Positions 12,212 through 22,950 of a stretch of DNA of 32,453 nucleotides are shown here, one piece after another. Below the pieces are notes generated by a model. That model searched no databases, was not told the DNA's origin, and was given only the letters and a program-made list of their open reading frames with translations. This stretch comes from an uncultured Planctomycetota bacterium (GTDB lineage: Bacteria > Planctomycetota > Phycisphaerae > UBA1845 > Fen-1342): positions 1 to 32,453 of the forward strand of contig CAADGM010000028.1 of assembly GCA_900696535.1 (NCBI GenBank), given 5' to 3'. A program made the position numbers and the translations under genes. Every line of letters starts with the position of its first letter. Within the stretch, counting starts at the first letter, position 1.

Positions 12212-13537
12212 GTGGACGAGCGCACCTGGCTGCTCGTCGTCGCCGGCGGGCTGCTGGCCGCCCTTTGCCTGTGGGGCGCGACCCGTGCCGCGCGCCGGGC
12301 GCGCCTGGTCCGTGACCTGCCCACGTGCAGCACTGACGGCGTGTTCATCGGGCTCGTGGAGCTGAAGGGGCGGGCGCGCTCGGAGCGACCGCTGACCAGC
12401 TTCCTCGCCGAGCGGCCCTGCGTGCACTACGCCTGGTGCGTCCAGGAGCATTGGCGCCGCACGGTCACCGAAACCTACACCGACAAGGACGGCAAGACCC
12501 GCACGCGCACGCGCGTCGAGAGCGGCTGGACGACCGTCGCCAGCGGCGGCGAGCAGCAGGACTTCTATCTCCAGGACGAGGACGGCGCGATCCGCATCCG
12601 GCCGGCCGGCGCCGAGATCGAGCCGCTTTCGGTCTTCGACCGCGCTTGCTCGCCGCGGGACCCGTTGTATTACGGCAAGGGACCGGCCGGGGCCGTGGCG
12701 AACTCGACACACACGCGCAGCTTCACCGAGAAGGCCATCCCGATCGACGCCACGATCTACGTCGTCGGCATGGCGCGCGAGCGGGACGATGTGATCGCCC
12801 CGGAGATCGCCGCCCACCGCGACGCCCCGATGTACCTCATCTCCACGCGCAGCGAGCAGCAGGTGCGGCGCGGGTACACGGCGCAGTACTGGTTCGTGGC
12901 TGCACTCGGCCTGGTGCTGTGGGTCGCGGGGTGGGTCGTCCGCGACGCGCTCGCGGCGGCGGGCCCGGTACCGTGGGGTGAGCGGCTGCCGGTGTATGCA
13001 GGCTGGGGGGCGGCGTACCTGGGCGCCTGGCTGCTGGCGTGGGTGTGGCTGGCGTACAACAGCCTCGTCGGGCTGCGGCAGCGCGTCCGACAGGCGTGGG
13101 CCAACGTCGACGTCCAGCTTAAGCGCCGGGCCGACCTGATCCCCAACCTGGTGCGCGCGGTGGAGGGGCTGCGCGACCACGAGCGGCAGGTGCAGACGCA
13201 CCTGGCCGAACTGCGCGCCCAGGCCGGCGCGACCGCCCCCGGCGAGCCCGGGCCGGACCCGCACGGGTGCCTGGCCAGCCTGCTGGCGATCGTCGAACGC
13301 TACCCGGAGCTGAAGGCCAGCGAGAGCTTCCTGCGGCTCCAGCGGGAGCTGGCCGCGACCGAACAGCGAATCGCCCTGGCCCGCGGCTACTTCAACGAGA
13401 TCGCGACGTTCTACAACACGCGGCTGGAGTCGGTGCCCGACGGCTACGTCGCCGCCCTGGCCGGCATGCGGCCCAAGCCGCTGATCACCGCGACGGATTT
13501 CGAGCGGGCGGCGGCGGCGGTGCAACTCAGCGCGTGA
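12212..13537 (+). CDS. GIDE-LemA fusion membrane protein
   Basis: A 441-residue protein from a GTG start. TM1 at 5-21; a GIDE-type domain (the MULAN/GIDE intermembrane domain, here without RING) spans about 45-225, recognised by GRARSERPLTSFLAERPCVHYAWCVQEH and the Y..GMA..RDD.I end; TM2 about 224-244; TM3 about 262-281; then LemA at 281-435 with YNSLVGLRQRVRQAWANVDVQLKRRADLIPNLV-type start and the YPELKAS..FL.LQ.EL..TE.RIA.AR segment. LemA domains are coiled bundles exposed outside the membrane; function is unsettled in both families. Its place next to the ESCRT-like cluster may matter because both domains occur in envelope-stress and membrane-organising proteins, but that is inference. Confidence 0.9.
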   Translation: MDERTWLLVVAGGLLAALCLWGATRAARRARLVRDLPTCSTDGVFIGLVELKGRARSERPLTSFLAERPCVHYAWCVQEHWRRTVTETYTDKDGKTRTRTRVESGWTTVASGGEQQDFYLQDEDGAIRIRPAGAEIEPLSVFDRACSPRDPLYYGKGPAGAVANSTHTRSFTEKAIPIDATIYVVGMARERDDVIAPEIAAHRDAPMYLISTRSEQQVRRGYTAQYWFVAALGLVLWVAGWVVRDALAAAGPVPWGERLPVYAGWGAAYLGAWLLAWVWLAYNSLVGLRQRVRQAWANVDVQLKRRADLIPNLVRAVEGLRDHERQVQTHLAELRAQAGATAPGEPGPDPHGCLASLLAIVERYPELKASESFLRLQRELAATEQRIALARGYFNEIATFYNTRLESVPDGYVAALAGMRPKPLITATDFERAAAAVQLSA

Positions 13538-14586: not shown

Positions 14587-15198
14587 CTACTTCGCCTCCT
14601 TCGCCCCGCCCTGGCTCTTGAGCGCGTCCAGCTCCGCCCGCAGGGCCGACATCTGCTGACCCTCGCGGGCCTTCTCGACCTGCTCTTCCGCCGCGATCAG
14701 CCGGTCGATCTCCTCGTCGCTGATGGCCTCGCTGGGGGCCGCGGCCACGTCCGCGGAGGCGGTCTGCTCGATCCCTTCCAGGAACATCGTCATCCGCTCC
14801 TCCATCGTCTGCGACTGGGCGATGGCCTTTTCCCACTCGAGCTGCGTCCTGGTCAGGTCGGCCTGGCCGTACATCCGCCCGATCTCGGCGGCCATGATCT
14901 TCATCGCACCGGCGAAGTCCGCCGCCGCCTCGGCCTGCCGCTTGATCAGCAGCGCGTTCTTCACCGCCAGGAGCTGCCGCTCGAGCATCTTCTTGATCGT
15001 CGCGGTCTTCTTGAGCGAGTTGCGGACGAAGGCGTACGACTGCATGTCGCCGATGGCCTTGGCCTGGCGCGCGTTCTTCACGAACTCGTCCTGGAACTTG
15101 CTCTGCTCGGCGATGGACTTCTCGATCCGCCGGATGCCCTGGCGGATCTTCATGTCGCGCTCGATTCGGCGTTCTTCGCTGGACTTGAAGAGACCCAT
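14587..15198 (-). CDS. ESCRT-III (Snf7/Vps2)-like protein with C-terminal MIM1-like helix
   Basis: A 203-residue, almost wholly helical, charged protein. It begins MGLFK followed by a basic helix, like the N-terminus of Vps2/CHMP2 and Snf7. A long helical hairpin follows (about 14-50 and 51-110, GDMQSYAFVRNSLKKTATIKKML), then ADFAGAMKIMAAEIGRMYG, and a TMEERM..FLEGIEQ helix near 131-145; order and spacing match eukaryotic Vps2-type ESCRT-III. Near the end, LRAELDALK (186-194) fits the MIM1 pattern L-x-x-R-L-x-x-L-K except Glu for Arg. MIM1 helices recruit Vps4 MIT domains; a MIT-like AAA protein is encoded 6.6 kb away. PspA/Vipp1 are the established bacterial members of the superfamily and are the main alternative. 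Membrane remodelling is inferred. Confidence 0.7.
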   Translation of the reverse strand: MGLFKSSEERRIERDMKIRQGIRRIEKSIAEQSKFQDEFVKNARQAKAIGDMQSYAFVRNSLKKTATIKKMLERQLLAVKNALLIKRQAEAAADFAGAMKIMAAEIGRMYGQADLTRTQLEWEKAIAQSQTMEERMTMFLEGIEQTASADVAAAPSEAISDEEIDRLIAAEEQVEKAREGQQMSALRAELDALKSQGGAKEAK

Positions 15199-15252: not shown

Positions 15253-15699
15253 CTACTCCCACGTCTGGCCCGTCCCGGGGCCTGGCTTCCCGTCGTGCTC
15301 AATCGGGTTGAGGTACTTCGGCCCCGGCATGCCCTCACGCGTACGGCGCAGGCGGCTGATGTACGCCTGAAGCTGGCGAGAGCATGGCTCGCAGCGCTCG
15401 TGCAGCCACGCGAAGGCGCGTTTGTCGATCAGGCCCACGTCATGGGCGGTACAGATCTGGCTCCGCAACTCGCCCGCAGACCCCCTGGCGATGTAGCACG
15501 CCTCGATCTGCTGCTTGCGCGTCCCGCGCTCAAAACCTTCGGCGATGTTGCTGCCGATGCTGACTGCGGCACGCTTCATCCGGGTCGCCAGGGCAAAGTC
15601 CTTCGCGAGCCGTTGCCGCTCGGCAGCCCGATAGACGCCGCGCGCGAGGATGCGCGCCGTCTGCCACACTCTCAGGTCTGCAAATCGGTTAGCGGCCAT
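15253..15699 (-). CDS. Four-helix-bundle protein (23S rRNA IVP family)
   Basis: A 148-residue member of the 23S rRNA intervening-sequence protein family. Signatures are FADLRVWQTARILARGVYR at the N-terminus, then LATRMKRAAVSIGSNIAEGFERGT and ACYIARGSAGELRSQICTAHDVG. The family is widespread in metagenomic bacteria and forms homo-oligomeric four-helix bundles; no enzymatic activity is known. The start at 15699 has AAGGGG about 10 bases upstream. It lies between two ESCRT-III-like genes in the same direction, with about 50 bases on either side, and is framed by inverted copies of an intergenic repeat, so it looks like a later insertion into the cluster. Confidence 0.9.
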   Translation of the reverse strand: MAANRFADLRVWQTARILARGVYRAAERQRLAKDFALATRMKRAAVSIGSNIAEGFERGTRKQQIEACYIARGSAGELRSQICTAHDVGLIDKRAFAWLHERCEPCSRQLQAYISRLRRTREGMPGPKYLNPIEHDGKPGPGTGQTWE

Positions 15700-15708
15700 A
15701 GCGTGCGA

Positions 15709-15746
15709 GCCCCTTTTCACCATCTCACGTTGGCACTTTATCACAC
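15709..15746 (-). repeat. Intergenic GTGATAA..AAGGGGC repeat, inverted copy 3
   Basis: On the minus strand the sequence reads GTGTGATAAAGTGCCAACGTGA then GATGGTGAAAAGGGGC. It is inverted relative to copy 2 and brackets the four-helix-bundle gene. Confidence 0.7.
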
Positions 15747-15749
15747 CGC

Positions 15750-16358
15750 TCACTCCGTGGCCGCTCCGCGCTCGCGCAGGCGGCGCTCGGCCTCGTCGAA
15801 GGCGGTGTGCGTGTCCTTGATCAGGCCGGCGTCGAGGTCGCCCCAGATCTTCATCAGCTCCTGTCCCGCCGGCGAGAGGCCCGCCCCGCCCGCGTCGGCC
15901 TCGGCCCCGATGGCCAGGATCTGGTCCAGCCGCTCCTGATACATCTCGGTCGTGATCGCGTCGCTCTCGATCAGCCGGGCGATCGTGGCCAGGTCGGCGT
16001 CGCGGATGGCCACCCGCCCGCCCAGGTTCAGCCCCGCGGCCGAGGCGGCGTTCTCCCGCAGCAGCCGCAGCCGGGCGACCGTGAGCATCTCCTTGCTGCG
16101 GATATTGAGCTGACGGCTGAGCATGGACTGCTCGGTGTGCAGGAGGTCGTACTGCTGCGCGAGCGTGCGGCGCATCTCGGGCGTGCGCTCCTTGGCGCCC
16201 TGCTCGACGAGCTTCTCCTTGTCGGCGGCCAGCTTGCGGACGCGGGCCATCGTGCGGTCGCGGTCGGCCTGGAGCAGCATCTCCTGGGCGCGCAGCTCGG
16301 CCGGGGACATGCTGGCCAGGGTCTTACGCTTGGTGGTGAGCCATTCGAAGAAGTTCAT
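15750..16358 (-). CDS. ESCRT-III-like coiled-coil protein
   Basis: A 202-residue helical protein starting MNFFEWLTTKRKTL. A short SPAEL box (18-22) leads into a long helical hairpin (about 22-58 and 60-105, broken at ERTPE), an Ala/Gly-rich break, and a second helical set (ADLATIARLIES, MYQERLDQILAIGAE, ELMKIWGDLD) with an acidic/basic tail. The helix lengths and break match the alpha1-alpha2/3 hairpin and alpha4-5 of ESCRT-III/PspA proteins. It aligns end to end with residues 270-440 of the protein encoded next upstream (MN-aromatic-x-W start, SPAE box, same hairpin), so the two are paralogues. The ATG at 16358 is preferred over an upstream in-frame ATG on that alignment. Confidence 0.62.
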   Translation of the reverse strand: MNFFEWLTTKRKTLASMSPAELRAQEMLLQADRDRTMARVRKLAADKEKLVEQGAKERTPEMRRTLAQQYDLLHTEQSMLSRQLNIRSKEMLTVARLRLLRENAASAAGLNLGGRVAIRDADLATIARLIESDAITTEMYQERLDQILAIGAEADAGGAGLSPAGQELMKIWGDLDAGLIKDTHTAFDEAERRLRERGAATE

Positions 16359-16583: not shown

Positions 16584-18053
16584 TCAGCTCAACTCCGGCT
16601 TCGCCTTGCTCTTCTCGCCCGGCGGCGGCTCGGCCGGCGCGGGGCCGCCCGCCAGCCGCTCCGCACCCGGCGCACGGCTGCGCTCCGCGGCCGGCGGCGC
16701 GGGTTCGGCTCCGGCCTTGGACGGGGCCGCCTTCTCCGCCGCCGCGGCCCTGAACCGCTCCATGATGGCCTGCTCTTCCTCGGCCATGGCGGGCGAGGTG
16801 GCCCCGACCTCGATGCTCGCGGCGAGGTCGGCGCTGGTGGCCAGCTCCGCCATCATTGCCTCGGCCTGGGCCGCCTCGCGGGCCAACTCCTCGGACGAGG
16901 GCAGCGCCACGCGCTTGCCCTTCTCGGCCCTGGTCTGGTGGTGGATGTGCGTGCCAATCACGTCAATCTGCTGCGTGAGCATGTTCGCCTGGGCCTGCAC
17001 TCGGCGCATCTCGCGCTCGGTCCGCATGAGTTGCCCGGCGATCGCGCGGCGCTCGGCATCGTTCTTGGCGTCGACCCCGCGCTGCTCGAGCTCGCGGGCC
17101 TGCTCGCCCAGCCCGGTCAACCGCTGGTCAAGCTGGTGCCGCTCCGCCTCGAGCTGCACGCGCTGCGCGGTCAGCTCGCGGACGCGCTCGGCCGGCGAGG
17201 GCGGCAGGCGAAACACGTTCCGACGGATCCAGCTCCACCAGTTCATCTCGCGAACCTCGTCGGCCAGCGGGCTGCGGCAAACGTGCAGCACGCCCTCGTG
17301 CACCACGGTCATCAGCCGACCGTCACGCCGGCACGCCTCGCGAACCAGCGCCACCACCTGCTCGCCCGGCAACCCGAGCTGCTCGGCCAGCTCCGGCAGC
17401 GCAAGGCCGCGCGACTCGAGCTCGACCGCGTGCTTCTGAAGATGATACACCAGCCGGCCCACCCGCTCGTCCAGCGACTCGAGCTCGAACAGCGGCCGCC
17501 AGGGAGATTTCTTGAGCACCTCGGGCACGTCGACGTCCCAGCCGCCGTCCGCCCGCCCGCCCATCAGGATCAGCGAGCAATCGCCGGCGGCGTTCACGAG
17601 CGCGCGGGCTTCGGGCGTGAACCCGGTCGGGCTCGCGAAGACCACCGCGGTCGGACGCTGCGGCCGGGGCATGCTGCGGAAGCGCGCCAGGGCGTCGCGC
17701 ACGTACTCGGCATCGATCGGGCCTGCGGCGCCGCCGAGGATCATCGCCTGCAGCGGCATGAGCACCTGCGCCCGCAGCCGAACGACCTCCCGGCGGAGCG
17801 GACCCAGAACGCGGCGCTCGAAGCGCAGTTGCTGCCCCTGCGCGCCGGGCAGCGACTGCTCGAGGGCGTACGGGTTGGCGGCGGAGGCCCCCCAGCGACT
17901 GACCGCGGCGCGAACCGTCTCCGCGCCGTCCGGCGTCGTTTCGACGCGCACGCGGTCCGCTGGCAGCCAGCGGCCCAGAAGCTGCTCGGCGCGCTTCACG
18001 AGCTGCCGGTGAAACTGGTCCTCGAACTGCTTGTAGCGGCTCCGCTCGTCCAT
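16584..18053 (-). CDS. Winged-helix plus ESCRT-III-like protein (CHMP7-like layout)
   Basis: A 489-residue protein. Residues 1-125 are helical and unrecognised. Residues 130-190 (PTAVVFASPTGFTPEARAL, SLILMGG) look like an alpha/beta core. Residues 200-260 look like a winged helix: ALPELAEQLGLPGEQVVALVREACRRDGRLMTVVHEGVLHV. At 270 begins a second unit, MNWWSW..SPAER, with a long charged helical hairpin (284-370) and later helices (385-440) that align with the neighbouring ESCRT-III-like protein; the tail is Pro/Ala/Glu-rich. A winged helix joined to an ESCRT-III unit is the layout of eukaryotic CHMP7, and winged helices occur in archaeal CdvB. That comparison rests on domain order and needs structural proof. 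The start at 18053 is chosen because sequence upstream becomes low-complexity and overlaps the next gene. Confidence 0.6.
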   Translation of the reverse strand: MDERSRYKQFEDQFHRQLVKRAEQLLGRWLPADRVRVETTPDGAETVRAAVSRWGASAANPYALEQSLPGAQGQQLRFERRVLGPLRREVVRLRAQVLMPLQAMILGGAAGPIDAEYVRDALARFRSMPRPQRPTAVVFASPTGFTPEARALVNAAGDCSLILMGGRADGGWDVDVPEVLKKSPWRPLFELESLDERVGRLVYHLQKHAVELESRGLALPELAEQLGLPGEQVVALVREACRRDGRLMTVVHEGVLHVCRSPLADEVREMNWWSWIRRNVFRLPPSPAERVRELTAQRVQLEAERHQLDQRLTGLGEQARELEQRGVDAKNDAERRAIAGQLMRTEREMRRVQAQANMLTQQIDVIGTHIHHQTRAEKGKRVALPSSEELAREAAQAEAMMAELATSADLAASIEVGATSPAMAEEEQAIMERFRAAAAEKAAPSKAGAEPAPPAAERSRAPGAERLAGGPAPAEPPPGEKSKAKPELS

Positions 18054-18165: not shown

Positions 18166-18435
18166 CTAGCCGCGCAACCGGCTCCCGCAGCGGGCACAGT
18201 ACCGCGCCTGTGGCGGGTTGAGGTAGCCACACCGGGTATTCGGGCAGCCGACGAGCGTATTGACCGGGACTCCGGGATCCGGGTGGCCGGCCCCGAAGAA
18301 GGCCCGCCCGAGCGTCCGGAAAGCACAGGTGACCGCCCGGATCACCGACCCGACCACCACGACGAAGAAGCCGACGAATCCGACGACCAGGAGTGTCAGG
18401 AGAACCGCGAAGGCGCTGGTTTCACCCAGGAGCAT
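18166..18435 (-). CDS. Small membrane protein with C-terminal zinc ribbon
   Basis: An 89-residue protein with one long hydrophobic segment (about residues 8-36), then a short linker and a CPNTRC...CARC zinc ribbon (about 64-84). The start lies 6 bases after the kinase stop codon, so the two are surely co-transcribed and probably translationally coupled. The kinase carries two similar ribbons. A role as membrane partner or anchor of the kinase is inference. Confidence 0.75.
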   Translation of the reverse strand: MLLGETSAFAVLLTLLVVGFVGFFVVVVGSVIRAVTCAFRTLGRAFFGAGHPDPGVPVNTLVGCPNTRCGYLNPPQARYCARCGSRLRG

Positions 18436-18441
18436 GGCGAA

Positions 18442-19506
18442 CTACCCCCGCAGGGCCGCCAGCGCCGCCCCGCAGTAGATGCAGTACCGGTCGAACGGAC
18501 CCGGATACGCCCCGCACGCGCTGCACCGCACGATCTGATCGACGAGCTGCACGCCGCAGTGTGTGCAGAAGTTGTCCTCGGGCTCGACCGCGCCGCCGCA
18601 GCCCGGGCAGCGCGTCAATCCGCCCAGCGTGACGCTGTCCACCGGCGGCCGGGCCGGCGCAGCGCCACGCGGCGCCGCCTCCTGCTCGAGAATCTGGAGC
18701 ACCTCGGCGGCCGACTCGAAGCGCCGCTCGTGCCGGGCGTACAGCCGGCGAAAGACCTCGTCGAGCGTGGGCGGCGTGTCGGCCCGCAGCGTACTCGGCA
18801 GCTCGGCGCCGGCGGGCCGCTCGCCCGTGAGCAACTCAAAGAGGATCACGCCAACGGCGTAGAGGTCGCTGCGGGCGTCCGGTGGCAGGCGCCCGTCGCG
18901 CACCTCGGGGGCCATGTAGGCCAGCGTGCCGGCAAGCTGCGAGCCCTGCTCGTCCCGCGCGATCGAGGCGGATTGCATCACGATTGAGCGCAGGTCGTTT
19001 TCCGTCTTGACGCCCAGGCCGAAGTCTCCCACCTTCACGTCCTCGACGCGCAGCTCCACGAGCGACCGCGGCCCGAGGTTGAGCAGCACGTTGCCGGGCT
19101 TGAGGTCGCGGTGAATGACGCCGCCGGAATGGGCAACGCCGAGACCGGTCAGCACGCCACGGAGGATTGTCAGCAGTACGGGAAGCCCCAGTCCCTTGGG
19201 GTGCTGGTTGATGACATCGCGGAGCGACGGACCCGAGACGAGCTCCATGACGAGGTAGGGCGTGTCCGCGTAGGGATCGAGGCCGATGACCCGCACGATA
19301 TTGGGGTGCCGCAGGCCGTGGACGACGATGCCCTCCGACCGCAGGTAGCGGACGTAGTCCGGCTCCGTGGGCAGCTTGACCGCGACGCGCTCGCTGTCCC
19401 AGACGTGATGCCGCGCCTGCCAAACCTCGCCGAACGCACCGCGCCCGAGCAACGACTCGAGGATGTACTCGCTGATGCGCAATCCGGGCTGGTAGCGCGT
19501 GATCAT
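18442..19506 (-). CDS. Serine/threonine protein kinase with two C-terminal zinc ribbons
   Basis: A 354-residue Hanks-type kinase. The kinase domain (about 10-275) is complete: glycine loop GRGAFGEV at 21-28, VAVK with K44, catalytic HRDLKPGNV at 132-140, DFG at 161-163, APE at 199-201. All catalytic residues are present, so it should be active. The tail holds two zinc ribbons, C300/C303 with C314/C317, and C328/C331 with C342/C345. There is no TM segment, so it is cytosolic, perhaps recruited to the membrane by the TM/zinc-ribbon protein encoded just downstream. The ATG at 19506 has a GGGAGAGAGGG purine run upstream. Its place at the head of the ESCRT-like cluster suggests it controls that machinery; this is inference. 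Confidence 0.9.
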   Translation of the reverse strand: MITRYQPGLRISEYILESLLGRGAFGEVWQARHHVWDSERVAVKLPTEPDYVRYLRSEGIVVHGLRHPNIVRVIGLDPYADTPYLVMELVSGPSLRDVINQHPKGLGLPVLLTILRGVLTGLGVAHSGGVIHRDLKPGNVLLNLGPRSLVELRVEDVKVGDFGLGVKTENDLRSIVMQSASIARDEQGSQLAGTLAYMAPEVRDGRLPPDARSDLYAVGVILFELLTGERPAGAELPSTLRADTPPTLDEVFRRLYARHERRFESAAEVLQILEQEAAPRGAAPARPPVDSVTLGGLTRCPGCGGAVEPEDNFCTHCGVQLVDQIVRCSACGAYPGPFDRYCIYCGAALAALRG

Positions 19507-20152: not shown

Positions 20153-21481
20153 CTACAGCAGCGTCCCGCGCAGTATGGCGGAGGCCAGCGCGAAGTAAAT
20201 GACCAGCCCGGTGACGTCGACCAGGGTTGCCACGAACGGCGCCGAGCTGGTGGCCGGGTCGAGGCGCAGTCGGCGCAACAGGAAGGGCAACATGCTGCCG
20301 ACGAGCGTGCCGAAACAGACCACGCCGATGAGGCTGGCCCAGACCGTCAGGCCGATCAGCACGTAGTGCGGTCCGTAGTCGTAGAAGCCGGCCGCCTGCC
20401 AGATGATCACGCGCAGGAACCCGATCAGCCCCAGCCACCCGCCCAGCGTGAGGCCGGACCGGAGTTCGCGGAGCAGGACGCGTGTCCAGTCGCGGAGCTG
20501 AAGCTCACTCAGGGCCAGCGAGCGCACAATCAGCGTGGCCGCCTGCGAGCCGGAGTTGCCCCCGCTGCTGATGATGAGTGGAATGAAAATGGCCAGCACG
20601 ATCGCCTTGGCAAGCTCGCCCTCGAAGAAACCCATCGCGGTCGCCGTCAGCGTCTGGCCGAGGAACAGCACCGAGAGCCACACGCCGCGCTTGCGGGTCA
20701 TCTCGAGGTACCCGACATCCAGGTAGGGCGCGCCGAGCTTCTCGGTACCGCCGAGCTTCTGAATGTCCTCGGTCGCCTCTTCCTGGACCACGTCGACCAC
20801 GTCGTCGACCGTGACCACGCCCTTCATCCGCCCCTCTTCATCGACGACCGGGACGGCCGTCAGGTCGTGCCGGGCAATGACCGCGGCCACGCTCTCCTGG
20901 TCGGCGGTCTCGTGCACCGTGACGACGTCGCGGCGCATCACCTGCTCGACCAGCGCGTCGGCCGGCGTCTGGAACAGCTCGCGGAACGACAGCACCCCCA
21001 GAAGCCGCTGCCCCGCGTCCAGGACGTAGATGTAGTGATACGTGGCGAGGTTCCGCTGCGTCTGCTGCCGCAGGTAGCGGATGGCTACGTCCATCGTGAC
21101 GTCCGGCCGCACGCGCACGAAGCGCGGATTCATCAGGCCGCCCGCGTCGTCTTCCGCGTAGGCCATCAGGGCGCGGACCTCGCGCAGCGTGATCGGATCC
21201 AGCCACGACTCGAACCGCTCGCGCTCCTCCGGCCTCACGGCCTGGAGCACGTCGGCCGTGTCGTCCGGCGGCAGGAAGCGGAGCCAGATCACCGCCTCGG
21301 CCGGCGTGAGGTCACGCAGCAGGCTCGCCTGGTCCGCCGACGAGAGCCCGGAGAAGAACTCGCGGGCTTCGTCGGAGGCCAGCAGCCGGAATGCGTCGAC
21401 CCGCTCGTCATCCGAGAGCACGCTCCAGAGGTCGCGGAGTGTCGCGGCGTCGAGTCTCTCGTCAGAAAGATCGGGCGGCAT
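20153..21481 (-). CDS. mgtE: Magnesium transporter MgtE
   Basis: A 442-residue MgtE-family Mg2+ channel. The N-domain (1-110) contains repeated LRDLTPAEA-type helices. Two CBS domains follow (about 118-238; VMRRDVVTVHETADQESVAAVIARHDLTAVPVVDE), then a connecting helix and five TM segments from about 268 to the end. The family signature SSGGNSGSQAATL is at 306-318. MgtE channels close when the cytosolic N and CBS domains bind Mg2+. The start at 21481 is where homology begins; the long upstream frame is GC-rich leader. It separates the leftward ESCRT-like cluster from the Vps4-like gene and is probably unrelated to them. Confidence 0.95.
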   Translation of the reverse strand: MPPDLSDERLDAATLRDLWSVLSDDERVDAFRLLASDEAREFFSGLSSADQASLLRDLTPAEAVIWLRFLPPDDTADVLQAVRPEERERFESWLDPITLREVRALMAYAEDDAGGLMNPRFVRVRPDVTMDVAIRYLRQQTQRNLATYHYIYVLDAGQRLLGVLSFRELFQTPADALVEQVMRRDVVTVHETADQESVAAVIARHDLTAVPVVDEEGRMKGVVTVDDVVDVVQEEATEDIQKLGGTEKLGAPYLDVGYLEMTRKRGVWLSVLFLGQTLTATAMGFFEGELAKAIVLAIFIPLIISSGGNSGSQAATLIVRSLALSELQLRDWTRVLLRELRSGLTLGGWLGLIGFLRVIIWQAAGFYDYGPHYVLIGLTVWASLIGVVCFGTLVGSMLPFLLRRLRLDPATSSAPFVATLVDVTGLVIYFALASAILRGTLL

Positions 21482-21798
21482 GGTGAGGTGACTCCCGCGC
21501 CCCCGGGGGCAACCCCGGGGCCCACTGCCTGGGTCCGCGCGCGGACCGACCGACCTGGTCCCGTGGCCACCCCCGGCCCGCCTCCCGCGCGCGGGCCGGA
21601 CGCGGCGACGCGAACCTAGCGTAGGCGTCGGCGTTGGGCAATCGCCACCGATCGTGCCGGCGCCGAGCGTGTCTCGAATTGCGCCCGGGCCAGAGAGCGG
21701 ACTTACGGCGAGAACCGCAATCGGTCGTACAATGTCCGGGTGTTGCGCCGCGACGCCGCGGCCGCGAATTCTGAGGACGCGCGACTGAATTCCCCGAG
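21482..21798. promoter_or_regulatory. Divergent mgtE / Vps4-like intergenic region
   Basis: No gene is seen. The mgtE side holds dense GC-rich self-complementary sequence: GCCCCCGGGGGC (21499-21510), CCCCGGGG (21513-21520) and GGTCCGCGCGCGGACC (21532-21547), suggesting a structured leader. I cannot assign it to the M-box riboswitch. On the other side TACAAT (21728-21733) is a candidate -10 box for the Vps4-like gene, about 65 bases before its ATG. Confidence 0.45.
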
Positions 21799-22950
21799 AT
21801 GCCTGCATCATTTGCCACGTTTCAGCGTCTCAAGGACAAGGGCCTGGCCGCCCTGCGCGAAGGCGACCACGTCGCCGCCCGGCCCTACCTGATCCAGGCC
21901 GCGGAGTGCATGATCGAGATCGCCGAGGCCAACACCGATCCGTCGCAGCGCGCTGAGCAGGAGGCCTACGCCAAGGAGCTGCTCGACCTGGCCCGCGATT
22001 GTGATCGCCGGGCGGCGGCCGGCGGGCGGGGCGGCGGGGCGGCGCTACGACCACGCGGCGAGCGGGCCCGCGGCGGCGGCGGGGGCGACGAGGAGCCGGG
22101 CGCCAACCCGGACGACTGGATCGTCCGCGAGAAGCCCACGGTCCGCTTCGACGACATCGCCGGACTCGACGACGTCAAGGCCGAGATCAAGCTCAAGATG
22201 CTGCACCCCTTCAACCACCCCGAGCTGGCGGCCCGGTACGGCATCGATGTCGGTGGCGGCGTGCTGCTGTGGGGCCCGCCCGGCACGGGCAAGACCATGT
22301 TCGCCAAGGCGATCGCGTGCGAGCTCGACGCGACGATGTTCGTCATCAGTCCCGCGCAGCTCATGAGCAAGTGGGTCGGCGAGGCCGAGCAGAACGTCCG
22401 TAAGCTCTTCGACGCCGCCAAACAGGAGGCCAAGAGCATCATCTTCATGGACGAGGTCGAGGCGCTCGTGCCCCGCCGCAGCGGCCAGCAGTCCACGGTC
22501 ATGCAGCGCGTCGTCCCGCAAATCCTCCAGGAGATCGAGGGCTTCGACCGCAAGGCCGGCCGAGCGCTCCTCTTCCTGGGCGCCACGAACGAGCCGTGGT
22601 CGCTCGACCCGGCGATGATGCGGCCCGGCCGGCTGGACGCGAAGATCTACGTCCCCCTGCCCGACGCCCCCGCCCGGCTGCGCCTGTTCGAGATCTATCT
22701 TGGCAAGCGCCCCCTGGCCGACGATATCGACCTGCCGGCGCTGGTCGAGCTCACCGCCGGCTACAGCGGCGCCGACATCAAGGCGATCTGCGAGCGTTCC
22801 GCAAGACGTCCCTTTTTGGAATCGATCGAGGGCGGTCAGCCTCGTAACATCCGCCAGGCCGACCTGCTGGCCGTGCTCGCCGAGACGCCGCGATCCGTGA
22901 CCGGCAAGGAGCTCGAGCGATTCGAGAAATGGAGGATCGAGAACCAATAG
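21799..22950 (+). CDS. Vps4-like AAA ATPase with N-terminal MIT-like domain
   Basis: A 383-residue single-ring AAA protein. Residues 5-72 form three predicted helices (FQRLKDKGLAALREGD.., PYLIQAAECMIEIAE, AEQEAYAKELLDLARDC), the form of a MIT domain. A Gly/Arg linker (73-105) follows. The ATPase begins with VRFDDIAGLDDVK; Walker A GPPGTGKT 159-166; pore loop LMSKWVGEAE 188-197, nearly identical to Vps4/katanin; Walker B IIFMDEVE 214-221; sensor GATNEPW; RPGRLDAKIYVPLPD; GYSGAD; ending TGKELERFEKW like katanin/CdvC. The Vps4 beta-domain is not apparent. In the family such ATPases pull ESCRT-III subunits or tubulin tails through the pore. Nearby ESCRT-III-like genes favour the first. AAA identity is certain; MIT is by eye. 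Confidence 0.85.
   Translation: MPASFATFQRLKDKGLAALREGDHVAARPYLIQAAECMIEIAEANTDPSQRAEQEAYAKELLDLARDCDRRAAAGGRGGGAALRPRGERARGGGGGDEEPGANPDDWIVREKPTVRFDDIAGLDDVKAEIKLKMLHPFNHPELAARYGIDVGGGVLLWGPPGTGKTMFAKAIACELDATMFVISPAQLMSKWVGEAEQNVRKLFDAAKQEAKSIIFMDEVEALVPRRSGQQSTVMQRVVPQILQEIEGFDRKAGRALLFLGATNEPWSLDPAMMRPGRLDAKIYVPLPDAPARLRLFEIYLGKRPLADDIDLPALVELTAGYSGADIKAICERSARRPFLESIEGGQPRNIRQADLLAVLAETPRSVTGKELERFEKWRIENQ

Follow-up and report, generated by a model that had tools for sequence, protein, structure and literature searches.

The locus

The window analysed here is a 32,453-nucleotide stretch of DNA from an uncultured Planctomycetota bacterium (GenBank assembly GCA_900696535.1, contig CAADGM010000028.1). 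Its gene P0002 is accompanied by five further genes that recur with it in related genomes.

14587..15198, minus strand: P0003, Snf7/ESCRT-III-type protein (Pfam Snf7 and PDB profile matches)
15750..16358, minus strand: P0004, helical protein, a homologue of the P0002 C-terminal unit (hhalign; at 77 of the best 80 of 154 loci)
16584..18053, minus strand: P0002, 489 amino acids from a 490-codon frame, with a predicted alpha/beta domain, winged helix and ESCRT-III-like unit
18166..18435, minus strand: P0006, small zinc-ribbon protein whose N-terminal segment is hydrophobic (ribbon below cut-off; at 58 of the best 80 of 154 loci)
18442..19506, minus strand: P0007, protein kinase of the Ser/Thr type (Pkinase E 5e-35) that also bears two zinc ribbons (both Zn_ribbon_3)
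21799..22950, plus strand: P0005, Vps4-like AAA ATPase with an MIT-like N-terminus (Vps4_C in 31 of 33 family members; MIT-like fold in the model)

Other frames lie among and beside these genes. Between P0004 and P0003, positions 15253-15753 (minus strand) encode a protein of the four-helix-bundle or 23S rRNA intervening-sequence type (TIGR02436, PF05635), which has apparently been inserted into this genome's copy of the operon. An FRG-domain protein directly downstream of P0003 (13640-14509, minus strand) matches the PADLOC candidate defence family PDC-S15, and a frame at 12212-13537 (plus strand) encodes a protein whose C-terminal part resembles MamQ (70 bits to the NCBIfam model, below its cut-off). 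In the interval 20153-22950, a MgtE magnesium transporter sits between the ATPase, which is on the other strand, and the rest of the operon; the starts of the two listed frames in this interval, one frame on each strand, overlap, as against the co-directional order in relatives. A scan for promoters and terminators was uninformative.

A conserved operon in Phycisphaerae

An alignment of P0003 was scanned against a set in which each bacterial and archaeal species is represented by one genome, which yielded 154 relatives, and the best 80 were analysed. Nearly all of these 80 loci carried the title Phycisphaerae, Phycisphaerales or Planctomycetota. P0004 was present at 77 of them, P0002 at 74, the kinase at 68, the zinc ribbon at 58 and the ATPase at 51; part of the absences arose because many loci stop at a contig end. 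Where present, the genes lay on one strand in the order kinase-ribbon-P0002-P0004-P0003-ATPase, the exception being two of the best 80 loci, where the call for the small ribbon came behind P0002. The operon is conserved in Phycisphaerae. P0005 adjoins P0003 in most relatives, and its displacement in the window is a local rearrangement. Among 61 relatives, P0003 and the ATPase orthologue were both found in 48 and both missing from 10, with 3 discordant cases, and an AAA ATPase lay close to P0003 in 20 of 20 distant loci (L086-L105). The whole operon was also seen at one locus (L169) in a record titled Alphaproteobacteria, probably a misassigned metagenome bin. A direct sequence search with P0002 returned 4 of 294 phylum genomes, its own included, and would have made the gene an orphan; the operon partners showed otherwise.

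Matches in PADLOC, of the kinase to generic kinase models and of the ATPase to IetA models, would be expected if the genes formed an anti-phage defence operon. We rejected this explanation as highly improbable, since P0002, P0003, P0004 and P0006 had no PADLOC match and the gene content of the operon is stable across the order instead of varying.

Predicted architecture of P0002

The original prediction, made from the sequence alone, had placed a winged helix at residues 200-260 of P0002, followed in the same chain by an ESCRT-III-like unit; it had named no strand for the gene. An AlphaFold2 model computed with 63 orthologues (mean pLDDT 86.7, pTM 0.62), together with its structural matches in VIA-align, agrees with this succession of folds and divides the protein as follows.

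17484..18053, minus strand: N-terminal alpha/beta domain, residues 1-190, weakly RPB5-like (AlphaFold2 and structural matches)
17274..17474, minus strand: winged helix, residues 194-260 (AlphaFold2 and VIA-align matches)
16728..17246, minus strand: ESCRT-III-like unit, residues 270-442 (AlphaFold2 and structural matches)

Residues 3-190 form a separate alpha/beta domain in the model, which had been absent from the earlier description; its resemblance to RPB5 in VIA-align is weak (1dzf, Z 8.2; 7vba_E, Z 8.5). The predicted winged helix consists of helices 194-207, 219-226 and 230-243 and strands 247-252 and 255-260, and residues 192-270 matched the winged helices of Zalpha (Z 9.7), human ESCRT-II (9.0) and MarR-type MepR (9.0). 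A short helix (272-280) opens the second unit. It is followed by a hairpin of helices 287-328 and 332-381 and then by helices 388-416 and 421-442, so that the model displays the long alpha1-alpha2 hairpin and succeeding helices by which ESCRT-III is recognised.

How far the hairpin can be assigned to ESCRT-III depends on the ranking of its structural matches. The top match was the CHMP2A-CHMP3 filament (7zcg, Z 11.0, rmsd 1.9 over 96 residues), with which dynein stalks (Z 10.8, 10.7 and 10.6) and LSD1-CoREST (10.5) tied; further matches included Asgard ESCRT-IIIB (10.6), Vipp1 (9.8 and 9.6) and Loki CHMP4-7 (8.7), and for helical hairpins a Z under about 13 can reflect a common arrangement. 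Because VIA-align rows less than 1 Z unit apart count as tied, we describe the helical fold as compatible with ESCRT-III rather than proven. Foldseek gave nothing below 1e-3 for P0002, and ESCRT-III was absent among the top 50 matches listed, though VIA-align had it. By sequence, 5 of 63 P0002 members matched the Pfam Snf7 profile (best E 0.1) amid generic coiled coils, which fit the C-terminal half as well as Snf7 does, and profiles of P0002 and P0004 run against PDB and Pfam returned chance or coiled-coil matches, with no clear ESCRT-III among them. The original prediction had set its ESCRT-III assignment against a helical part that matched generic coiled coils only. On that point structure and sequence differ: the former puts CHMP2A-CHMP3 first, tied with the dynein stalk, and the latter finds coiled coils as readily as Snf7. 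The ESCRT-III label of the C-terminal half rests on its predicted fold, its homology with P0004 and its genomic company.

Two sequence features of ESCRT-III-type proteins gave uneven results. An amphipathic alpha-0 window stood above control in P0002 only (mean moment 0.44 vs 0.27), those of P0004 and P0003 not exceeding control. The strict MIM1 pattern occurred in 1 of 30 P0003, 0 of 63 P0002 and 0 of 57 P0004 sequences, a count that covers the MIM1 class.

Homology with P0004 and the identity of P0003

Profile comparison of the P0002 family (63 sequences) with the P0004 family (57) in hhalign gave a probability of 93% and an E value of 2.5e-7 over residues 270-370. The original prediction had aligned residues 270-440 of P0002 with its neighbour from a shared MN-aromatic start and SPAE box. 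Both motifs do correspond in the profile alignment, and the similarity is significant across about 100 residues rather than the whole of 270-440. P0003 showed no significant similarity to P0002 or to P0004 in the same kind of comparison. Because it aligns significantly with neither, one common family for the three proteins is not shown by sequence.

P0003 itself is, judging by its profile matches, a Snf7-type protein. Pfam Snf7 (PF03357) was matched by 16 of 30 P0003 relatives with a best E of 2.7e-6 and was the most frequent family in the scan; the window's own copy gave no Snf7 match at E 1. Of seven PDB profile matches up to E 1, six were CHMP3, SNF7 or CHMP2A (E values 0.0046, the best, 0.022 and 0.22, respectively). 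PspA_IM30 (PF04012) was absent among the 25 families listed for P0003, 14 lesser ones aside, and had no match anywhere in the genome G000.

Split and fused forms of P0002

In distant planctomycete families no fused P0002 was seen. There, the N-terminal part of P0002 corresponds to the C-terminus of a separate protein, and the C-terminal part is a gene of its own. Both halves were adjacent at three loci (L005, L090 and L099), and one half was recognised at ten others (L003, L086, L087, L089, L092, L093, L096, L097, L101 and L105). The free C-terminal proteins begin M-x-x-x-K/R-I-K/R-x-L, in line with codon 270 of the fused gene, and the one at L101 starts with GTG. Since the starts of the free halves line up with codon 270, the fusion junction of P0002 is a former gene start. 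This bears directly on the earlier suggestion that a whole ESCRT-III-like protein had been appended to another module, which the separate neighbouring genes, split at that very place, bear out. At two loci the N-terminal half lies behind a MerR-type HTH (L093, 3909-5474; L096, 2834-4372), which hints at DNA contact.

If the winged helix bound DNA, P0002 might be a transcription regulator or a nucleoid tether whose coiled coils oligomerise, with no membrane role. The winged helix fits DNA-binding folds as well as it fits ESCRT-II, and the MerR-type domain in the two distant relatives would suit such a function. Against it stand the gene's constant association with a Snf7-type protein and with an MIT-AAA ATPase, and the occurrence of the helical half on its own elsewhere, and we consider a purely DNA-directed function improbable.

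A candidate internal start at codon 270

17244..17246, minus strand: codon 270 as candidate site of internal initiation (GAGGT, Shine-Dalgarno-like, at 17254-17258)

The original prediction had also proposed that translation may start internally at the methionine at residue 270, and conservation at this codon supports the proposal. Among 63 fused orthologues the codon was ATG in 57, GTG in 5 and CAT in 1, that is, ATG or GTG in 62 of 63. All five valine cases were GTG, for which the chance from valine codon use is about 0.02. A Shine-Dalgarno-like match of at least 4 nt lay upstream in 61 of 62 sequences, compared with a mean of 43.0 and a maximum of 49 in 200 synonymous-codon shuffles, and matches of at least 5 nt numbered 31 (shuffle mean 19.9, maximum 29). 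Other conserved methionine columns behaved differently: 358, 400 and 423 fell within their shuffles, and column 51 was borderline for at least 4 nt (14, against a shuffle mean of 11.0 and maximum of 14). When relatives were thinned to below 60% identity (37 sequences), 0 of 300 shuffles reached the observed mean. Below 50% identity (14 sequences), 0 of 300 reached the mean and 3 the count of matches of at least 4 nt, and below 45% (11 sequences) the corresponding numbers were 1 and 4; the sequences share kinship, and shuffle counts are not exact probabilities.

We read this conservation as selection for internal initiation. P0002 probably yields two products: a long form that includes the winged helix, and the ESCRT-III-like subunit on its own. 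A conserved internal start would be a simple means of setting how much nucleator is made per filament subunit.

P0005 is predicted to be a Vps4-like ATPase

The C-terminal Vps4_C domain (PF09336) was found in 31 of 33 members of the P0005 family (best 3.2e-7) behind a single AAA cassette; the window copy scored 19.9 bits, slightly below the cut-off of 21.3. In the predicted structure the first 71 residues form three helices (pLDDT 95.8). For this N-terminus, MITD1 ranked first in Foldseek, where many other listed matches were MIT domains, and VIA gave MITD1 (Z 12.1), the MIT domain of VPS4A (11.9) and the ESCRT-III-bound MIT of S. solfataricus (11.8), with the TPRs of AIP (11.6) and NASP (11.5) within one Z unit of these. 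Sequence does not settle MIT vs TPR, TPR_2 being matched by 13 and MIT by 1 of the 33 members. P0005 is thus predicted by its model to carry an N-terminal MIT domain, as Vps4 does.

The AAA core points to a slightly different neighbourhood. Against AAA families P0005 scored 225.9 bits for CDC48 and 214.7 for CdvC, and its C-terminal region 72.1 bits for p97 D2, 67.2 for katanin and 62.4 for CdvC (4d81), which places the core slightly nearer p97/Cdc48 D2 than CdvC or katanin. Because its AAA core scores nearest p97/Cdc48 D2, we call P0005 Vps4-like by architecture and assign no ancestry. A second AAA ATPase adjoins P0003 in distant loci (L088, 1689-2912; L095, 7598-8938; L102, 11138-12424; and others), several of which hold both ATPases. 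For the second ATPase, tested at L095 and L102, the best single-ring PDB match was VPS4B, aligned from the MIT domain on (E 1.5e-48 for 7l9x and 7.9e-47 for 2zam).

These matches bear on another possibility, namely that the operon has no relation to ESCRT and encodes a generic coiled-coil scaffold together with an AAA disaggregase. The generic coiled-coil matches of P0002 and the modest Z values of its hairpin, under about 13, would both be expected of such a scaffold. The Snf7 matches of P0003, together with Vps4_C and the MIT-like fold of P0005, would not, and we regard a system unrelated to ESCRT as quite unlikely, more so even than a DNA-directed one.

A proposed membrane-remodelling machine

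The analysis shows the gene order, the homologies, the predicted folds, the split and fused states and the conservation of start codon and Shine-Dalgarno sequence. The observation behind the original prediction is confirmed and its interpretation supported. In our preferred reading, which we hold with good though not high confidence, P0002 is the adaptor or nucleator of a bacterial ESCRT-III/Vps4-type membrane-remodelling machine made up with its operon partners and including its two products. Its C-terminal half would be an ESCRT-III-like filament subunit that polymerises and binds membrane, and recruitment or nucleation of the polymer at its target would fall to the winged helix and the alpha/beta domain. 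P0004 and P0003 would be two further filament-type proteins, and P0005, whose MIT domain would contact their tails, would remodel or disassemble the polymer. The kinase P0007 is a likely regulator and the membrane-anchored zinc ribbon P0006 a likely tether. Initiation at codon 270 would probably give the ESCRT-III-like unit alone, and thus a capped and a free subunit from one gene.

Planctomycetes are known for unusual membranes. The operon might stand in for the missing FtsZ as a cell-division machine comparable to archaeal CdvABC. The ESCRT-III/Vps4 architecture would suit a division machine, and planctomycetes are described as lacking FtsZ in the accessible text of one study (PMC6952346). 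FtsZ exceeded the cut-off in 1 of 61 relatives (G306, contig C302:1267-2226), probably as a contaminant, since this genome has 8% contamination, and one other relative gave a weak match. P0003, for its part, is missing from 12 of the 61, none of which has FtsZ over the cut-off, and therefore the operon is not a universal FtsZ substitute. Six of these 12 (G322, G328, G332, G335, G347 and G353), each with a completeness of 90% or more, are without the ATPase orthologue as well, and P0003 was found in 57 of 392 genomes sampled from the phylum. Replacement of FtsZ as the sole role was rejected on the distribution of FtsZ and P0003, and a division machine of this kind appears unlikely.

A stronger contender is that the operon replaces PspA as a system for envelope stress and membrane repair, which we consider a serious possibility while leaning somewhat against it. 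PspA was found in 9 of the 61 relatives, in 5 of the 49 that have P0003 and in 4 of the 12 that lack it, and a kinase and a membrane zinc ribbon would suit stress sensing. The anti-correlation is not significant (Fisher p 0.065), and 5 genomes have both; interchange of PspA and P0003 is a hint. Returning to the machine proposed above, its role would be ATP-driven membrane remodelling, repair or vesiculation. We favour such conditional functions over obligatory division because of the distribution of FtsZ and PspA, obligatory division being less likely because FtsZ-less relatives without the operon exist.

Comparison with known systems

No description of this operon was found in the literature searched; bioRxiv and most subscription papers were outside its scope, so a prior description is possible. 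The original prediction had likened the fold classes of P0002 to those of CHMP7 and archaeal CdvB. The likeness to CHMP7 holds for domain order: as in CHMP7, the predicted winged helix of P0002 is N-terminal to an ESCRT-III unit in one chain, and the neighbours of the gene include other ESCRT-III-type proteins as well as an MIT-AAA ATPase. CHMP7 has two tandem winged helices. P0002 differs in its single winged helix, its extra alpha/beta domain, its conserved internal start and its bacterial setting, with no nuclear envelope, and we do not file it as CHMP7 because the model has one winged helix only and residues 3-190 are alpha/beta.

In the archaeal CdvB/CdvC system, as in the operon, ESCRT-III-type proteins occur together with an MIT-AAA ATPase, and a winged helix is fused to one of the subunits. 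According to the accessible text of PMC10936438, CdvB carries its winged helix at the C-terminus, so that the domain order is reversed in P0002, where the winged helix is N-terminal, and in this respect the comparison with CdvB did not hold. The AAA domain of P0005, moreover, scores nearer Cdc48 D2 than CdvC. Among bacterial proteins, PspA and Vipp1 have been placed in the ESCRT-III superfamily, a Vps4-like partner being left open in the accessible part of that report (PMC8281802). Vipp1 was among the structural matches of P0002, whereas P0003 matches Snf7 and PspA was not among its matches listed. Vps4-like ATPases occur in some bacteria in which, as far as the accessible text goes, an unrelated TPR/6TM gene takes the place of snf7 (PMC11237479); in the planctomycete operon, unlike in those systems, a Snf7-type gene is present.

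If our reading of the operon is true, bacteria of a phylum without FtsZ have an ESCRT-III/Vps4 pairing, and the operon makes the origin of the pair testable. The broader claim, that Planctomycetota possess a complete ESCRT-III/Vps4 machine with a CHMP7-like nucleator from a dual-product gene, is in our estimate evenly balanced between true and false; the pairing would then either not be an archaeal-eukaryotic invention or have crossed domains. Because split and fused versions coexist in one phylum, the route by which a winged helix joined ESCRT-III becomes testable as well.
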